From Bryobacterales bacterium (GTDB lineage: Bacteria > Acidobacteriota > Terriglobia > Bryobacterales > Bryobacteraceae): 35,546 bases of DNA. The DNA lies in the NCBI GenBank assembly GCA_003163855.1, contig PLRJ01000089.1, forward strand, positions 1 through 35,546. The letters are read 5' to 3'. Under the pieces are notes generated by a model that searched no databases, was not told the origin of the DNA, and saw nothing but the letters and a program-made list of their open reading frames with translations. Shown one piece after another: positions 19,288-26,506 of this stretch; the first letter of the stretch is position 1; every line of letters starts with the position of its first letter. A program made the position numbers and the translations under genes.

Positions 19288-20474
19288 GAGGGCTGATTGG
19301 GTCTATCGTTCTCAGTGTTCTAGCTGTTCTGTCGGTTTCCGCGCAAACATTGGTTATCAGCGCCGGGACTGTCCTTGACGGCAAAGGAGGTGTTCTAAAG
19401 AACCAATTGATAAAGATTTCGGGCGGACGCATTGTGAGCGTAGAGCCTGGAAATACGACCGGCGACATCGATCTCCGCCGTTTTACTGTAATGCCCGGCT
19501 GGATTGATACACATGTTCATCTGGATTGGCACTTTGGCAAGGACGGCAAGCTGGCCAGAGCCGCAGGTGAAAAGCCGGAGGAGGTTGTTCTTTACGACGC
19601 GGAGAACGCGTGGCTGACTTTGCAAGGTGGGTTTACAACCGTGCAGAGTGTCGGGTCACAGAATGATGTGCCGGTGCGGGATCGAATAAACTCGGGGAGT
19701 TTGCCGGGACCTCGGATCCTGACCTCAGTCAAGCAACTGACGAAGGATTCGGGCGATCCCGAGGCTCTCCGAGCGCTGGTTCGACAACTGAAGGCGGATG
19801 GCGCTAACGAGATCAAGCTTTTTGCCACAGCAGGGCTTGGTTCAGGCGGTGCACAGACGATGACCGACACTCAGATTCAGGCAACCTGCAGCGAGGCAAA
19901 AGCGCAGGGGCTGCGTTCCGTGGTTCACGCGATCAGCGACCAGGGCGTGCGCGCGTCCGTGCTTGCCGGATGCACCTCCATTGAGCATGGAATCTTTACG
20001 AGTGACGCCACATTGGAACTTATGGCCGAGCATGGCACATACTTTGATCCGAATTTTCTGGTTTTACACAACTATCTGGAGCGTTTGCCGAACTTCAACT
20101 TCACTCCAGCGGTTGCCGCCAGTCTAGAGAAGGGTCTGCCACCGACTGCCGATGTGCTTCGGCGTGCACGCAAATATAACGTAAAGGTCGTGCTTGGAAC
20201 CGATGCCGTGGCTGGAGCGCACGGCCGCAACGCCGAGGAATTTATTTATCGAGTTAAAGACGGCGGCGACACGCCAATGCAGGCGCTGTTGAGTTCCGCC
20301 TCAGTCGCGGCGGAAGCGCTAGGTTTGGGCAGAACAATAGGAACTGTAGCGCCTGGTTTTGACGCAGACCTTGTTGCGGTAGAGGGCAATCCGCTGGATG
20401 ACATCACAGCCGTGCGCCGAGTGATCTTCGTGATGAAAGGCGGAAAGGTTTATAGAGGACCTGGACCTTTGTAG
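19284..20474 (+). CDS. Secreted metal-dependent amidohydrolase 1
   Basis: Amidohydrolase-superfamily enzyme with a signal peptide (VRGLIGSIVLSVLAVLSVSA, then Q). The 396-residue protein has the binuclear-type metal ligands in order: His77 and His79 (DTHVHLDWH), Lys178 (EIKLF), His215 (VVHAIS), His235 (SIEHGI) and Asp307 (GTDAVAGAHG), the layout of imidazolonepropionase/prolidase-like enzymes that hydrolyse cyclic amides or dipeptides. Start GTG 19284 overlaps the BNR stop (GTGA), with GAGAG about 7 bases upstream; a longer in-frame TTG start at 19263 lies wholly in the BNR gene. The last 25 bases overlap amidohydrolase 2 on the other strand. It is a paralogue of amidohydrolase 2, about half identical by eye. 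Substrate unknown. Confidence 0.87.
   Translation: MRGLIGSIVLSVLAVLSVSAQTLVISAGTVLDGKGGVLKNQLIKISGGRIVSVEPGNTTGDIDLRRFTVMPGWIDTHVHLDWHFGKDGKLARAAGEKPEEVVLYDAENAWLTLQGGFTTVQSVGSQNDVPVRDRINSGSLPGPRILTSVKQLTKDSGDPEALRALVRQLKADGANEIKLFATAGLGSGGAQTMTDTQIQATCSEAKAQGLRSVVHAISDQGVRASVLAGCTSIEHGIFTSDATLELMAEHGTYFDPNFLVLHNYLERLPNFNFTPAVAASLEKGLPPTADVLRRARKYNVKVVLGTDAVAGAHGRNAEEFIYRVKDGGDTPMQALLSSASVAAEALGLGRTIGTVAPGFDADLVAVEGNPLDDITAVRRVIFVMKGGKVYRGPGPL
20450..20474. repeat. Near-palindromic shared tail of two convergent paralogues
   Basis: Within 20451-20473, 16 of 23 positions match the reverse complement. Plus reads Y R G P G P L stop; minus reads Y K G P G P L stop. Most mismatches fall at synonymous or conservative codon positions. 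No T-run flanks it, so it is not an obvious terminator. Confidence 0.85.
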
Positions 20475-21670
20475 ATCTTGCCGCCCTTCATGACAAAAAC
20501 GACCCTACGAAGAGCGGTGATGTCTGTGATGGGATCGCCGTCGACGGCAATTAAATCCGCCTGCATACCGGCAGCCAAAGTACCAACTCGGTCGGACAGA
20601 TTGAGGGACTCGGCGGACAAGGAAGTTGCGGAGGTGATGGCATCCGTGGGATTTTGGCCGCCCTGTTGAACGCGATAGATCAATTCCTCGACATTGTGGC
20701 CATGGGCGCCAGCCACTGCGTCGGTACCGTAGATGATCTTCAGCTTCGGTGTCTGCAGCGCCTGTTTGAAAACGCTTAGAGAAAGAGGAATGGATCGCTG
20801 CATGGCAGCCATGCCTTCCTCCGTGTAGTTGCCGATACCAAGATAGTTCTGTCTATGGGCCAAGTAGTTTTGAGCAACCAATCCGATGTTGGGATCGAAG
20901 TAGGTGCCGCGCTCCGCCAGGAATTTCAGCGCCTCAGGGGTTATCAGCGTTCCATGCTCCACAGAATTGCAGCCTGCTTCGGAAACAAGCTTAATTGTGT
21001 CGGGACCATAGACGTGAACAATCGCTCGCAGGTGCTGGGCTTTAGCTTCGCCACAGGCAGCATCGATCTGTTCCTTCGCGAGAGTCTGGCCGCCACCATC
21101 GCGAAAGCTTTTGGAGGCGAAAATCTTAATCAGATCTGCACCGTCAGCCGAAAATTTCTTGACGGCTGCGTGGATCTGCTCAACAGACAAGGAAGGATCG
21201 CTGATGGCGCCTAGCGAGGTCAGTACTCGAGGGCCGGGTAGAATACCTCGATTTATAGCTGCGCGGAGTTCGCCGTCGATAGGAGCACCTACACTTTGCA
21301 CAGTGGTGAAACCGCCCATTAAGGTCAGGTAGGCATTCTCCACGGCATATCCAAGCGCCGAGGCCTGTGACGTTTCACGCTGTTGGTAGCGTCCATCAGT
21401 CCCGAAGTGCCAGCCTATGTGGACGTGAGTATCGATCATTCCCGGAAGCACGGTGAATTTTCTGAGATCGACAACTTTGCCCTTCTCACCCGATCCGATT
21501 TTCGAAATTTGCGAACCCGTTACCACGACATCCACGTTGTGCCGAGTTCCGCCCTTGCCGTCGAGAAGGGTTCCCACCCGGAGAACCACAGCGTCCTGCG
21601 CGCCCGCGAGTTGCGCGAGCAACAAGAAAATTACCGGATATCCGGTTCGTCTAAGTGGGGCACTTATCAT
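20450..21670 (-). CDS. Secreted metal-dependent amidohydrolase 2
   Basis: 406-residue paralogue of amidohydrolase 1, in the opposite direction. Signal peptide MISAPLRRTGYPVIFLLLAQLAGA, then Q. Metal ligands are His82 and His84 (DTHVHIGWH), Lys in LIKIFASKSF, His in AIVHVYG, His in SVEHGT, and Asp in YGTDAVAGAHG. Both proteins end FVMKGGK(V/I)Y(R/K)GPGPL, and the DNA for that ending is partly shared, the genes overlapping tail to tail by 25 bases. The start is only 11 bases from the start of the M20 gene on the plus strand. Likely acts on peptides or cyclic amides in the periplasm or outside; the substrate is not set by sequence. Confidence 0.87.
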   Translation of the reverse strand: MISAPLRRTGYPVIFLLLAQLAGAQDAVVLRVGTLLDGKGGTRHNVDVVVTGSQISKIGSGEKGKVVDLRKFTVLPGMIDTHVHIGWHFGTDGRYQQRETSQASALGYAVENAYLTLMGGFTTVQSVGAPIDGELRAAINRGILPGPRVLTSLGAISDPSLSVEQIHAAVKKFSADGADLIKIFASKSFRDGGGQTLAKEQIDAACGEAKAQHLRAIVHVYGPDTIKLVSEAGCNSVEHGTLITPEALKFLAERGTYFDPNIGLVAQNYLAHRQNYLGIGNYTEEGMAAMQRSIPLSLSVFKQALQTPKLKIIYGTDAVAGAHGHNVEELIYRVQQGGQNPTDAITSATSLSAESLNLSDRVGTLAAGMQADLIAVDGDPITDITALRRVVFVMKGGKIYKGPGPL

Positions 21671-22980: not shown

Positions 22981-23018
22981 CCGCGGTTTTGGTAGGCTAA
23001 AGACGAAGCGAGGACATC

Positions 23019-23168
23019 ATGCCGGATTGGGCTATCTTGTTACTGGGAATTGCCGGATACGTGGTTCTGATGAAGGTCATTCTGCCGCGCTTTGGGATGC
23101 CCACTTGAATGTCCAGCCAATGTGACGCCGGGTCTCGGCGTGAGAAAAAGATAACTTCCGAGAAGTGA
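23019..23168 (+). CDS. Candidate membrane-anchored selenoprotein, UGA-Sec readthrough (49 residues)
   Basis: ATG at 23019 is preceded by GAGG at good spacing. Residues 1-29 form one hydrophobic helix (MPDWAILLLGIAGYVVLMK) and a turn, ILPRFGMPT. The next codon is TGA (23106-23108). If it is a stop, the product has 29 residues. Read as selenocysteine (Sec30), the frame continues MSSQCDAGSRREKKITSEK to a TGA at 23166-23168, five bases before the end of amidohydrolase 3. This gives a redox-like Sec-x4-Cys pair (Sec30, Cys35) with a basic tail after the helix. A SECIS-like hairpin follows the UGA. Length and layout suggest a bitopic membrane protein; family and function are not known to me. No selA, selB or selC is in the window, so host capacity is untested. 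Sec reading is inference; the 29-codon ORF is certain. Confidence 0.65.
23125..23141 (+). promoter_or_regulatory. SECIS-like hairpin after the in-frame UGA
   Basis: Stem ACGCCG (23125-23130), loop GGTCT (23131-23135), stem CGGCGT (23136-23141); all six pairs are Watson-Crick. The loop starts 22 bases after the TGA, inside the coding frame, as bacterial SECIS elements are. From memory, E. coli fdhF has the same GGUCU loop about 18 bases after its UGA. No T-run follows, so it is not an obvious terminator. Confidence 0.65.
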
Positions 23169-23173
23169 CTTGT

Positions 23174-24421
23174 TTACTGCTTGTAAACAGTGCCGCCCTT
23201 CATTACGAACTTTACCTGTTCGATGACGGAGATGTCTTTTAGTGGATCGCCGTCTACCGCGATTAAATCGGCAAGCATGCCTGGCTTTACCGAACCAATC
23301 TCCATGTGAAGAACTCGGCCTGCGACCGAGGTTGCTGACTTCAGAACTTCAACGGGTGCCATTCCATAATCGACCATACGCTCTAACTCGCGGGCGTTTT
23401 CACCATGTGGGAACGTTCCGACGTCGCTGCCGCTCAAAATGGTCACTCCGGAGTCGAGGGCGGCTTTGAAACTGGCTCGCTTGCGTATTGTGGCGGGCGA
23501 CTCCGGTTGGTCCTTCCTGGGTTTAGCGACACTTCCGGCGGTAAGCGTGGGGCAAAATGCCACGTGGTGCTCGGCCATCAGCTTGAAAATCTCTGGTGTT
23601 CCCTCGTTACCGTGCTCAATCGTTTCGGCGCCAGCTAGAGTGGCCCGGCGCATACCTTCTACAGTGCTGGTGTGGACAGCTACGGGCACACCGGCGCTTT
23701 TTGCCGTCTCAACGGCCAGTTTCATCTCCTCGAGCGAAAATGTTGGGTGAGAACCGGGATTGGGCCCCCAACGATAGTCTCCGTATAACTTGATCCAGTC
23801 TGCACCGCGGCCGATTTGGTCCCTCACGGTGCGAATTAGACTGTCAACGCCGTCCGCTTCTTCGGCTCCTTGTGGAATGTGCCACTCCAGAACAAAACCT
23901 TTCGGAGCGTAGCTGCCGGTGGCGACAATGGCGCGAGTAGAGACTAACATCCGAGGCCCCGGAATGATGCCTTGATTCACCGCTTGCTTAAGCTCGACAT
24001 CCGAATACCCTGCACCCTCGGTACCGAGATCGCGGATGGTGGTAAAGCCGGCCATCAGTGTCGCACGTAAGTGGTTGGTAGCACGCGCCACTCTTAGCGC
24101 CAGGCCTTCGTGCGCCACTTGATCGTTCCAGGAAGTCTCGCTGTAAGCATGCAGCAGGACGTGGGAATGTCCTTCCACAAGTCCAGGCATGAGAGTTAGC
24201 CCCGGCAACTCAATAATCTTGGCCCCCGTTGTATCCATGTTTGCCGCCGGAGAGACCGCATCGATTCGGTCGCCTTTCACTTTGACGGCCCAGCCTTCAT
24301 GCATGACCTCTCCATCGAAGGTGAGCTTTGGTTTCAGCACATAGACTGTGGCCTGCGCGTACAGGATGCTTTGCAGGAGGCACGTAAGCAGAAGTGTCGC
24401 GTTGAGGCAACTGATTCGCAT
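23174..24421 (-). CDS. Secreted metal-dependent amidohydrolase 3
   Basis: Amidohydrolase of 415 residues from the ATG at 24421, more distant from the other two. Signal peptide MRISCLNATLLLTCLLQSILYA, then Q. Ligands: His85 and His87 (EGHSHVLLHAY), Lys in DWIKLYGDYRWG, His in VAVHTSTVEG, His in TIEHGNEG, and Asp in GSDVGTFPHGENARELE. It is of the imidazolonepropionase/Xaa-Pro-dipeptidase type by motif order. The C-terminus (GMLADLIAVDGDPLKDI...VMKGGTVYKQ) is the usual beta-sandwich closing. A TTG at 24427 is in frame and would add two residues, but it overlaps a TATAAT box, so ATG 24421 with a near-leaderless transcript is preferred. It converges with the candidate selenoprotein gene, ending 5 bases from it. 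Confidence 0.88.
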   Translation of the reverse strand: MRISCLNATLLLTCLLQSILYAQATVYVLKPKLTFDGEVMHEGWAVKVKGDRIDAVSPAANMDTTGAKIIELPGLTLMPGLVEGHSHVLLHAYSETSWNDQVAHEGLALRVARATNHLRATLMAGFTTIRDLGTEGAGYSDVELKQAVNQGIIPGPRMLVSTRAIVATGSYAPKGFVLEWHIPQGAEEADGVDSLIRTVRDQIGRGADWIKLYGDYRWGPNPGSHPTFSLEEMKLAVETAKSAGVPVAVHTSTVEGMRRATLAGAETIEHGNEGTPEIFKLMAEHHVAFCPTLTAGSVAKPRKDQPESPATIRKRASFKAALDSGVTILSGSDVGTFPHGENARELERMVDYGMAPVEVLKSATSVAGRVLHMEIGSVKPGMLADLIAVDGDPLKDISVIEQVKFVMKGGTVYKQ

Positions 24422-24426
24422 ACGCA

Positions 24427-24432
24427 ATTATA
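24427..24432 (-). promoter_or_regulatory. -10 box for near-leaderless amidohydrolase 3 transcript
   Basis: Perfect TATAAT on the minus strand, with 5 bases between it and the ATG at 24421. Transcription would start at about the first coding base. No clear -35 box at the usual spacing. Confidence 0.4.
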
Positions 24433-24457: not shown

Positions 24458-26506
24458 GTGAAAATCCTCCTTCTCTTACTGCCAGCCCTTGCGCTTGCAG
24501 CAGACACAGAGTGGCCCGTCAACGGCGGCCCAAACAACATTCGCTATTCGACATTGAACCAAATCAATCGTGAGAATGTCACGCGCCTGCAGGTCGCATG
24601 GACGTACGACGCGCATGATGCGTTCAAGGATTCCGAGATGCAGAGCAATCCGATTGTTGTAGACGGCATGCTGTATGCGACGACTCCCAAGATGCGAGTT
24701 ATAGCGCTAAGCGCTACAACCGGGCGTGAGATTTGGAGTTTCGATCCGAGCGGAGGCGCGAAAATCACCCGCCGTTTCCGGCAGCGCGGAGTAACCGTTT
24801 ATCAAGACCGTTTGTTTGTTACCTACCGCAACTTTCTCTATTGCCTGGATCGAAAAACCGGAACGCCAGTACAATCCTTCGGCGACAACGGTCGAATCGA
24901 TTTGAGGAATGGATTGGGGCGGCCGCCCGAAACGATGACCGTGAGTGCCAGTTCACCAGGGGTGATTTTTGAGGACATGATCATTATGGGCAGCACTGTG
25001 CCCGAGACATTGCCAGGATCGCCCGGACACATTCGCGCATTCGACGTCCATACGGGCGCCCAGCGCTGGATCTTTCACACAATCCCCCATCCGGGAGAAT
25101 TCGGATACGATACCTGGCCGCCAGAAGCCTATAAGATCAACGGCGGAGCTAATGCCTGGGCGGGCCTTACTATCGACACTAAGTTGGGAATGGTGTTTGC
25201 GGCGACTGGATCCGCGTCGTTCGACTTCTATGGTTCAAACCGTATCGGAGATAATCTGTTTGCCGATTGCGTACTGGCGCTGGACGCGCACACAGGCAAG
25301 CGAATCTGGCATTTTCAGGGAGTCCATCACGACGTCTGGGATCTCGATTTTCCGGCCGCTCCCAGTCTGGTTACGGTAACCAGAGACGGAAAAAAGGTGG
25401 AAGCGGTGGCTCAGATAGCCAAGACAGGCTATGTTTTCGTACTCGACAGGATGACGGGAAAACCGCTTTTCCCCGTATCTTCCCGCAAAGTTCTGCCGTC
25501 GACCTTGGAGGGGGAAAAACTCTCGGAAACTCAGCCCTACCCGCTGAAGCCTCCGCCCTTCACCAGACAAGCCTTCACTCCAGCTATGGTGACGAATCTC
25601 ACGCCGGAGGCGCATGCCGCCGTGCTGGCAGCGCTCAAGACGTTTGATTCCAACGGCATGTTCACACCGCCAAGTTTGCGCGGCACTATGCTTATGCCTG
25701 GAACCGATGGCGGCGCTGAATGGGGCGGCGCAGCTTTCGATCCGGATACGGCCCTGCTTTATGTAAACGCCAATGAGCAGCCTTGGGCCATTCGCATGGT
25801 GACACACGACACGACATCCCTTTACAACAACAACTGTGCAAGCTGCCATCGTTCCGATCGGACTGGTTCTCCGCCGACTTTTCCATCCCTCATCGACATT
25901 GGAAAACGTCGCTCCAGAACGGAAATCGCGAGCATTATCAGAGAAGGCACGGGGCGGATGCCGGGATTCGATTACCTGGAGAAAGGGATCGACCAGATTG
26001 TCGATTTTCTGGTAACGGGGAAGGACACAGCGGCGGTAGACCCTGAAGCCGCCAAAAAAGACCCGAACTGGCAGAAATATCGCAATGAGGGCTACATTCT
26101 GTTTCGAGATCCTAACGGCTATCCACCCCTGACTCCGCCTTGGGGAACGCTTAATGCTATCGATCTAAACAAGGGTGAGATCAGGTGGCAAATACCGCTG
26201 GGAGAGTATCCGGAGCTGGTGGCGAAAGGCATCAAGAATACGGGCAGTGACAATTACGGAGGCCCGGTGGTGACAGCAAGCGGCCTGCTATTTATCGGCG
26301 CCACCAATTTCGACAAAAAGTTTCGGGCTTTTGACAAGTTGACCGGCAAAATGCTTTGGGAAACCGAACTGCCCGCGGCTGGCAACGCAACTCCGTCGAT
26401 TTATGAAATTGACGGGCGCGAGTATGTAGCCATTGTGTGTGGAGGTGGAAAAAATGGCGCACCTTCCGGTAGCAGCATTGTCGCCTTTGCACTTCCGCAG
26501 AGTTAG
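24458..26506 (+). CDS. PQQ-dependent dehydrogenase with embedded cytochrome c domain
   Basis: Periplasmic quinoprotein of 682 residues that oxidises a sugar or alcohol and passes electrons to a haem c. Residues 1-14 (MKILLLLLPALALA) are a signal peptide, cleaved before ADTEWP. The eight-bladed propeller shows repeats such as VIALSATTGREIWSFD, AFDVHTGAQRWIFHTIPHPGEFGYDTW and ALDAHTGKRIWHFQGVHHDVWDLDFPA, plus DKLTGKMLWETELP near the C-terminus. Within it, at about residues 455-535, lies a haem c site, CASCH (460-464), with Met501 in GRMPGF as likely axial ligand. This inserted cytochrome is typical of a quinoprotein glucose dehydrogenase-like group common in Acidobacteriota. Start is GTG at 24458, without a clear ribosome site. 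Substrate not set by sequence. Confidence 0.92.
   Translation: MKILLLLLPALALAADTEWPVNGGPNNIRYSTLNQINRENVTRLQVAWTYDAHDAFKDSEMQSNPIVVDGMLYATTPKMRVIALSATTGREIWSFDPSGGAKITRRFRQRGVTVYQDRLFVTYRNFLYCLDRKTGTPVQSFGDNGRIDLRNGLGRPPETMTVSASSPGVIFEDMIIMGSTVPETLPGSPGHIRAFDVHTGAQRWIFHTIPHPGEFGYDTWPPEAYKINGGANAWAGLTIDTKLGMVFAATGSASFDFYGSNRIGDNLFADCVLALDAHTGKRIWHFQGVHHDVWDLDFPAAPSLVTVTRDGKKVEAVAQIAKTGYVFVLDRMTGKPLFPVSSRKVLPSTLEGEKLSETQPYPLKPPPFTRQAFTPAMVTNLTPEAHAAVLAALKTFDSNGMFTPPSLRGTMLMPGTDGGAEWGGAAFDPDTALLYVNANEQPWAIRMVTHDTTSLYNNNCASCHRSDRTGSPPTFPSLIDIGKRRSRTEIASIIREGTGRMPGFDYLEKGIDQIVDFLVTGKDTAAVDPEAAKKDPNWQKYRNEGYILFRDPNGYPPLTPPWGTLNAIDLNKGEIRWQIPLGEYPELVAKGIKNTGSDNYGGPVVTASGLLFIGATNFDKKFRAFDKLTGKMLWETELPAAGNATPSIYEIDGREYVAIVCGGGKNGAPSGSSIVAFALPQS

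Follow-up and report, generated by a model that had tools for sequence, protein, structure and literature searches.

Selenoprotein K has a layout like that of SelS, with one helix and a cytoplasmic tail that carries selenocysteine (Sec). According to the excerpted text of PMC3628699, SelS has one transmembrane helix, a short N-terminus on the far side and Sec in the cytoplasmic tail as the penultimate of 189 residues; its SECIS element lies in the 3'UTR, and a selenosulfide between Sec and a nearby Cys has been proposed. The bacterial family described here is like SelS and selenoprotein K in its predicted layout only and no homology is claimed; its helix is predicted, and its charge bias fits such an arrangement. 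Sulfide detoxification operons of the cst type are comparable to those of the bigR type. The bigR operons, as far as the extract of PMC5823870 describes them, combine an ArsR-type regulator, a dioxygenase with a sulfurtransferase domain and a TauE exporter, and contain no small selenoprotein, whereas several members of the present family have neighbourhoods with the same ArsR, dioxygenase-sulfurtransferase and TauE components. With the SelB-dependent selenoproteins of bacteria, as the excerpted catalogue presents them, the family shares the UGA codon, a hairpin with its loop 16-37 nt further on, homologues with Sec or Cys, and co-occurrence with selB. None of the 119 bacterial selenoprotein families and subfamilies in Table 1 of PMC13188914, a catalogue of 2026, fits it by name and motif, and no small single-helix U-x4-C protein can be recognised there on the same basis.

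The window, a 35,546-nucleotide stretch of a Bryobacterales genome (contig PLRJ01000089.1), very probably contains a real selenoprotein gene in which the UGA at codon 30 is read as Sec, as judged from sequence comparison. The earlier note had proposed this reading, and it is now supported by a TGA shared among relatives, exchange of Sec and Cys, a covarying hairpin and co-occurrence with selB. The coordinates given there, the 19-codon extension, the hairpin and Cys35 all match a direct reading of the sequence (Table 1). The extended frame closes at a second TGA (23166-23168), and the next gene, on the minus strand, ends at 23174. Elsewhere in the window we noticed a PQQ-dependent dehydrogenase-like protein with a CxxCH haem motif (24458-26506), beside two amidohydrolase-like genes (20450-21670 and 23174-24427), all named by eye.

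Table 1. Features of the candidate selenoprotein gene, in window coordinates.
Feature	Position	Strand	Basis and remarks
Complete putative selenoprotein gene	23019..23168	+	ATG start at 23019; 49 residues, translated with TGA=U; homologues over full length
Predicted product			MPDWAILLLGIAGYVVLMKVILPRFGMPTUMSSQCDAGSRREKKITSEK
Probable Sec codon UGA, residue 30	23106..23108	+	Aligned TGA in 82/86 distinct members, Cys codon in 4
SECIS-like hairpin	23125..23141	+	By eye; family excess over synonymous recoding, and covariation
Hairpin stem, ACGCCG / CGGCGT	23125-23130 / 23136-23141	+
Hairpin loop, GGTCT	23131-23135	+
Codons of predicted membrane helix, residues 3-24	23025..23090	+	AlphaFold2 model
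Codon of Cys35, possible resolving or partner residue	23121..23123	+	Cys at +5 in 86/102 TGA members
GAGGA, possible ribosome binding site	23010..23014	+	By eye; 4 nt upstream of ATG

Relatives were searched for in 396 genomes of the phylum of the window (Acidobacteriota), using the 49-residue protein with C substituted for Sec as query. Matches were found in 73 genomes, and those in 61 had an internal TGA. In all 54 of these that were read (G056, G079, G104, G161, G239, G242 and G263 being left out), the TGA stood at one site, after PxxGxxT behind a hydrophobic stretch. Of the 12 matches without a stop, that in G187 alone proved to be a genuine Cys form. The remaining 11 (f48/g76 genomes and G238) were set aside, seven of them giving no profile match and four being unread. 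Scanning contigs of named genomes yielded 39 loci (TGA in 35, Cys in four); among the record titles are bins of Planctomycetota, Rokuibacteriota, Verrucomicrobia, Armatimonadetes and Deltaproteobacteria. Profile searches found the family in 26 of 294 Planctomycetota genomes (21 TGA, four Cys, one off-motif) and, in the phylum of the Rokuibacteriota record, in 15 of 95 genomes with a TGA within every match; of 12 loci from the latter phylum, 11 had the TGA at the site and one was missed by the motif. Nine pattern matches on viral contigs included zero confirmed relatives. The off-motif Planctomycetota match (L176, G655:C48), which was excluded from the counts, has its TGA earlier in the motif (PKSGUGTSAC) and may represent a variant with a shifted Sec or else match by chance; its genome has selB. 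One Blastocatellia contig carries two copies of the family gene about 2 kb apart (L058:4001-4204 and L058:5969-6166).

The Acidobacteriota and named-contig sets together comprise 86 distinct proteins, whose alignment shows no variation at Pro23, Gly26, Thr29 or the Sec/Cys column. The frame behind the TGA is open for at least 15 codons in all 102 distinct TGA members, compared with 76 and 56 for the other two frames, and runs for 16-42 codons. The conservation and openness of this tail were partly selected for, because the homologue searches included it. Relatives carry TGA or Cys at the site (61 TGA genomes in the first search and seven distinct Cys forms overall), the pattern that the earlier note had suggested looking for, and an in-frame UGA is followed by conserved coding sequence.

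When the window protein and 28 members were compared with NCBIfam release 20 and Pfam, no fitting family was found. The 28 members, out of 86, matched no selenoprotein family in these collections at E <= 1 and had scattered weak matches to unrelated families (best E 0.0051), and a sequence search of the PDB gave a lone, meaningless match (E 0.54). No such family is named in the titles and abstract openings inspected from full-text literature searches, which did not extend to subscription journals or preprints. The family is apparently undescribed, being set apart from the catalogued ones by name and motif, and we take it to be a new family of a known, SelB-dependent kind of protein with an unusual architecture. 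It occurs in 61 of the 396 sampled Acidobacteriota genomes as well as in Planctomycetota, Rokuibacteriota and others and is unmodelled in Pfam and NCBIfam; gene callers are expected to truncate it at the UGA or discard it as too short.

The 102 TGA members have a median length of 56 residues (45-77, with starts chosen by rule). In agreement with the single membrane helix claimed earlier, AlphaFold2 places one helix at residues 3-24 of the window protein, with pLDDT of 89 for the first block of ten residues and 86 for the second; the mean pLDDT is 68.4 and the tail is of low confidence. Among 86 members, the stretch ahead of the helix has a mean net charge of -0.8 and that around the Sec side one of +2.2, the Sec side being more positive in 85 and equal in one. 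The positive-inside rule predicts a cytoplasmic tail, and the product is modelled as a protein that crosses the inner membrane once, with a short basic Sec tail that would lie at the cytoplasmic face. The earlier idea of a redox-like U-C pair outside the helix holds in so far as a Cys at +5 from Sec is common, but the charge bias predicts Sec on the cytoplasmic side. Conservation of Cys35 was likewise borne out in part: a Cys stands at +5 in 86 of the 102 TGA members but not in the other 16, and when positions +4 to +7 are taken together it is present in 93 and absent in nine. Some members from the Rokuibacteriota phylum lack the Cys partner, so that Sec is the constant feature and a U-C pair is not obligatory; where the partner exists, Sec could be recycled via a U-C selenenylsulfide.

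The genomic context of the relatives was examined in two ways. A Pfam scan of operon neighbours covered 131 of the 153 genes that lie on the same strand, at most two genes away and with gaps of up to 200 nt, taken from the 85 loci other than the window by mechanical longest-ORF gene calls, and recorded 19 rhodanese, 13 DUF302, nine metallo-beta-lactamase and five TauE domains. A tblastn tally with 12 query genes covered 3-kb flanks, some of them shorter, of 106 loci (L071 and L180 are the same gene counted twice, neither copy with a match). A sulfur or DUF302 gene was found within 3 kb in 37 loci and none in 69, including the window, in which none of the 12 queries drawn from the recurrent neighbourhood gave a match. 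Rhodanese-domain matches occurred in 22 of the 106 loci, always on the same strand and within 1.5 kb. The dioxygenase-rhodanese query matched 22 loci and the CoA-disulfide reductase-rhodanese query 20, labels that overlap with each other and with rhodanese because the queries share the rhodanese domain; the nine metallo-beta-lactamase neighbours of the Pfam scan are the cleaner dioxygenase count. DUF302 matches were found in 22 loci (21 on the same strand and near), ArsR-type in 15, TauE in nine, OsmC in four and SQR-like in three. As background, 27 genomes, a biased sample hand-picked partly for their loci and counted per genome, contained 24 DUF302 genes, of which 13 lay no more than 1.2 kb from the family gene, and 0 to 13 rhodanese matches each.

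Two Planctomycetota loci with the Cys form (L184 and L188) have the order TauE, dioxygenase-rhodanese, family gene, SQR-like, and L105, a locus with the Sec form, has ArsR, TauE, dioxygenase-rhodanese, rhodanese, family gene, cytochrome bd, SQR-like. These names are given by domain and analogy, and gene calling is poor in the GC-rich Planctomycetota contigs. Against the type III SQR model (cut-off 525), the SQR-like protein of L184 reached 259 bits. The scores were 55-59 bits for the dioxygenase-rhodanese proteins with the Blh model (cut-off 625) and 245 bits for the cytochrome bd subunit, where the cut-off is 968; the Lactamase_B and rhodanese domains of the dioxygenase-rhodanese proteins exceed the Pfam cut-offs. 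Several rhodanese genes in these genomes themselves have an in-frame TGA (e.g., G157:C19:110930 and G365:C6:585473) and may be selenoproteins, perhaps of a known rhodanese-related kind. In L086 and L089, the family gene adjoins a divergent ArsR-type regulator with a [LM]CxxVC motif, and behind the family gene come genes judged by eye to be outer-membrane-factor-like, membrane-fusion-like and RND-like.

We infer that Sec, or Cys in its place, may serve as a membrane-tethered nucleophile for sulfane sulfur or persulfide, or in membrane thiol redox. Its partners would be proteins of sulfide oxidation and detoxification, i.e., SQR, dioxygenase-rhodanese, rhodanese, CoA-disulfide reductase-rhodanese and the TauE exporter. 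The chances of such a sulfane-sulfur or redox role stand about even. A more specific scheme is tentative and rather unlikely: a membrane-tethered selenol relay would take sulfane sulfur on Sec or Cys at the cytoplasmic face of the inner membrane, for example from sulfide:quinone reductase, and hand it to the persulfide dioxygenase/rhodanese, replacing the low-molecular-weight thiol used elsewhere. The family offers a compact, testable model for Sec proteins of the membrane and would connect selenium with the way environmental bacteria deal with sulfide.

A serious rival to the sulfane-sulfur role, a real possibility though short of probable, is that the protein belongs to general thiol or peroxide defence or to metal(loid) resistance and not to sulfide metabolism as such. 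The ArsR-type and OsmC matches tallied above, RND-like efflux genes named by eye in 12 loci and the DUF302 neighbours all suit a defence function, but the rhodanese matches with their constant strand and close spacing, the two genomes in which SQR-like genes adjoin Cys homologues and the nine loci with TauE point to sulfur. The earlier note had linked the gene to the adjacent secreted metallopeptidase and hydrolases, which would have it acting outside the membrane. The peptidase gene does lie only 38 bp upstream on the same strand, but this link was not upheld and is very unlikely: other neighbourhoods recur among the relatives, namely those with sulfur genes (peptidases were not searched there by name, and the window itself is without the 12 query genes), and the charge bias predicts a cytoplasmic tail.

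In the window, the loop of the hairpin behind the UGA starts 22 nt after this codon, and the hairpin fits the bSECIS criteria (small apical loop 16-37 nt after the UGA, G in one of the first two loop positions) as far as the extracted source states them. The SECIS loop of E. coli fdhF is GGTCT as well. When 23100-23150 was folded, the z-score was -0.52 and 54 of 200 shuffles were as stable, so that the lone hairpin is ordinary, and the bacterial SECIS search that the earlier note had called for, run with Rfam at gathering and relaxed thresholds, gave no match in the window. The case therefore rests on the relatives, whose family-wide excess and covariation back the claim of a SECIS-like element.

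Hairpins were scored with the apical loop starting 14-26 nt after the TGA and G-U pairs allowed, against a null of protein-preserving synonymous recoding with 300 trials each. A stem of at least 6 was found in 64 of 82 TGA members (null means 20.3 and 23.5, maximum 34), and in 44 when only Watson-Crick pairs were accepted (null means 4.1 and 5.1, maximum 13); 18 had no stem of 6 within the tested range. Covariation was measured in those 70 of the 82 sequences that are in register (69 of them distinct), with shuffles that ignore relatedness. The score was 0.442 against 0.199 when shuffled, and double-change cells numbered 76 against 21.9, both reached in 0 of 500 shuffles, and the six stem pairs were formed in 79.2% of cells, compared with 26-47% for slid partners. 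Two measures were weak: pairs having a double change (6 vs. 4.3; 45 of 500 shuffles as high) and extra pair types (16 vs. 13.6; 39 of 500). Alignment columns 19 and 29 pair as T-A in 23, C-G in 19 and T-G in 15 of the 70 sequences; mostly a GTC valine codon faces a CGA arginine codon or a GCC alanine codon faces a CGG arginine codon, a switch that keeps the arginine. Raw counts, taken without a null, gave a stem of at least 6 close behind the TGA in 15 of 21 TGA members from Planctomycetota and in 8 of 11 from the Rokuibacteriota phylum.

Cys occupies the UGA position in seven distinct homologues (L030/L068, L053, L070, L073, L158, L159 and L165), three of them from Planctomycetota, and one Cys-form genome (G187) belongs to the same family as that of the window. 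These seven homologues, which read on with a Cys codon in place of the TGA, bear directly on the plainest alternative, a 29-residue membrane peptide with a genuine stop at the TGA and a continuation due to chance. Such a peptide is what a standard reading of the frame gives, and the ordinary lone hairpin and the lack of an Rfam or Pfam match agree with it, but together with the frequent Cys at +5, the hairpin excess and the covariation, the Cys forms make it extremely improbable.

The genome of the window has selA (476 bits), selB (361 bits), selD (365 bits) and, as selC, a tRNA-Sec (73.6 bits, anticodon tca), so that the absence of this machinery, which the earlier note had named as a refuting observation, is excluded. 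As judged from sequence comparison, SelB and tRNA-Sec would decode the UGA at codon 30, aided by the adjacent hairpin. In Acidobacteriota, selB was above the cut-off in 60 of 61 TGA genomes and in 194 of 335 others (Fisher p 5e-12, uncorrected for relatedness). It was also present in 19 of 20 Planctomycetota TGA genomes and in 10 of 13 hand-picked from the 35 TGA contig loci, giving 89 of 94 overall. The exceptions are G242, in which the family gene is unread, G403, G404, with a partial selB match of 203 bits, G409 and G420, and incomplete or mixed bins may explain them. A different decoding of the UGA, as Trp or Cys or through near-cognate read-through, could draw on these five genomes, one with its partial match, but is scarcely credible in view of the exchange of Sec and Cys, the SECIS-like hairpin, the full selA/B/C/D set of the window's genome and selB in the remaining 89.

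Among the seven Cys-form genomes, selB was missing from five (G187/G397, counted as one genome for their identical protein, G398, G578, G592 and G649) and present in two (G396 and G399). One Cys-form record (L068, CALQCC020000001.1) is titled Bordetella parapertussis; it looks like a misassigned bin, and it matches G187:C1, which is in the family of the window's genome.
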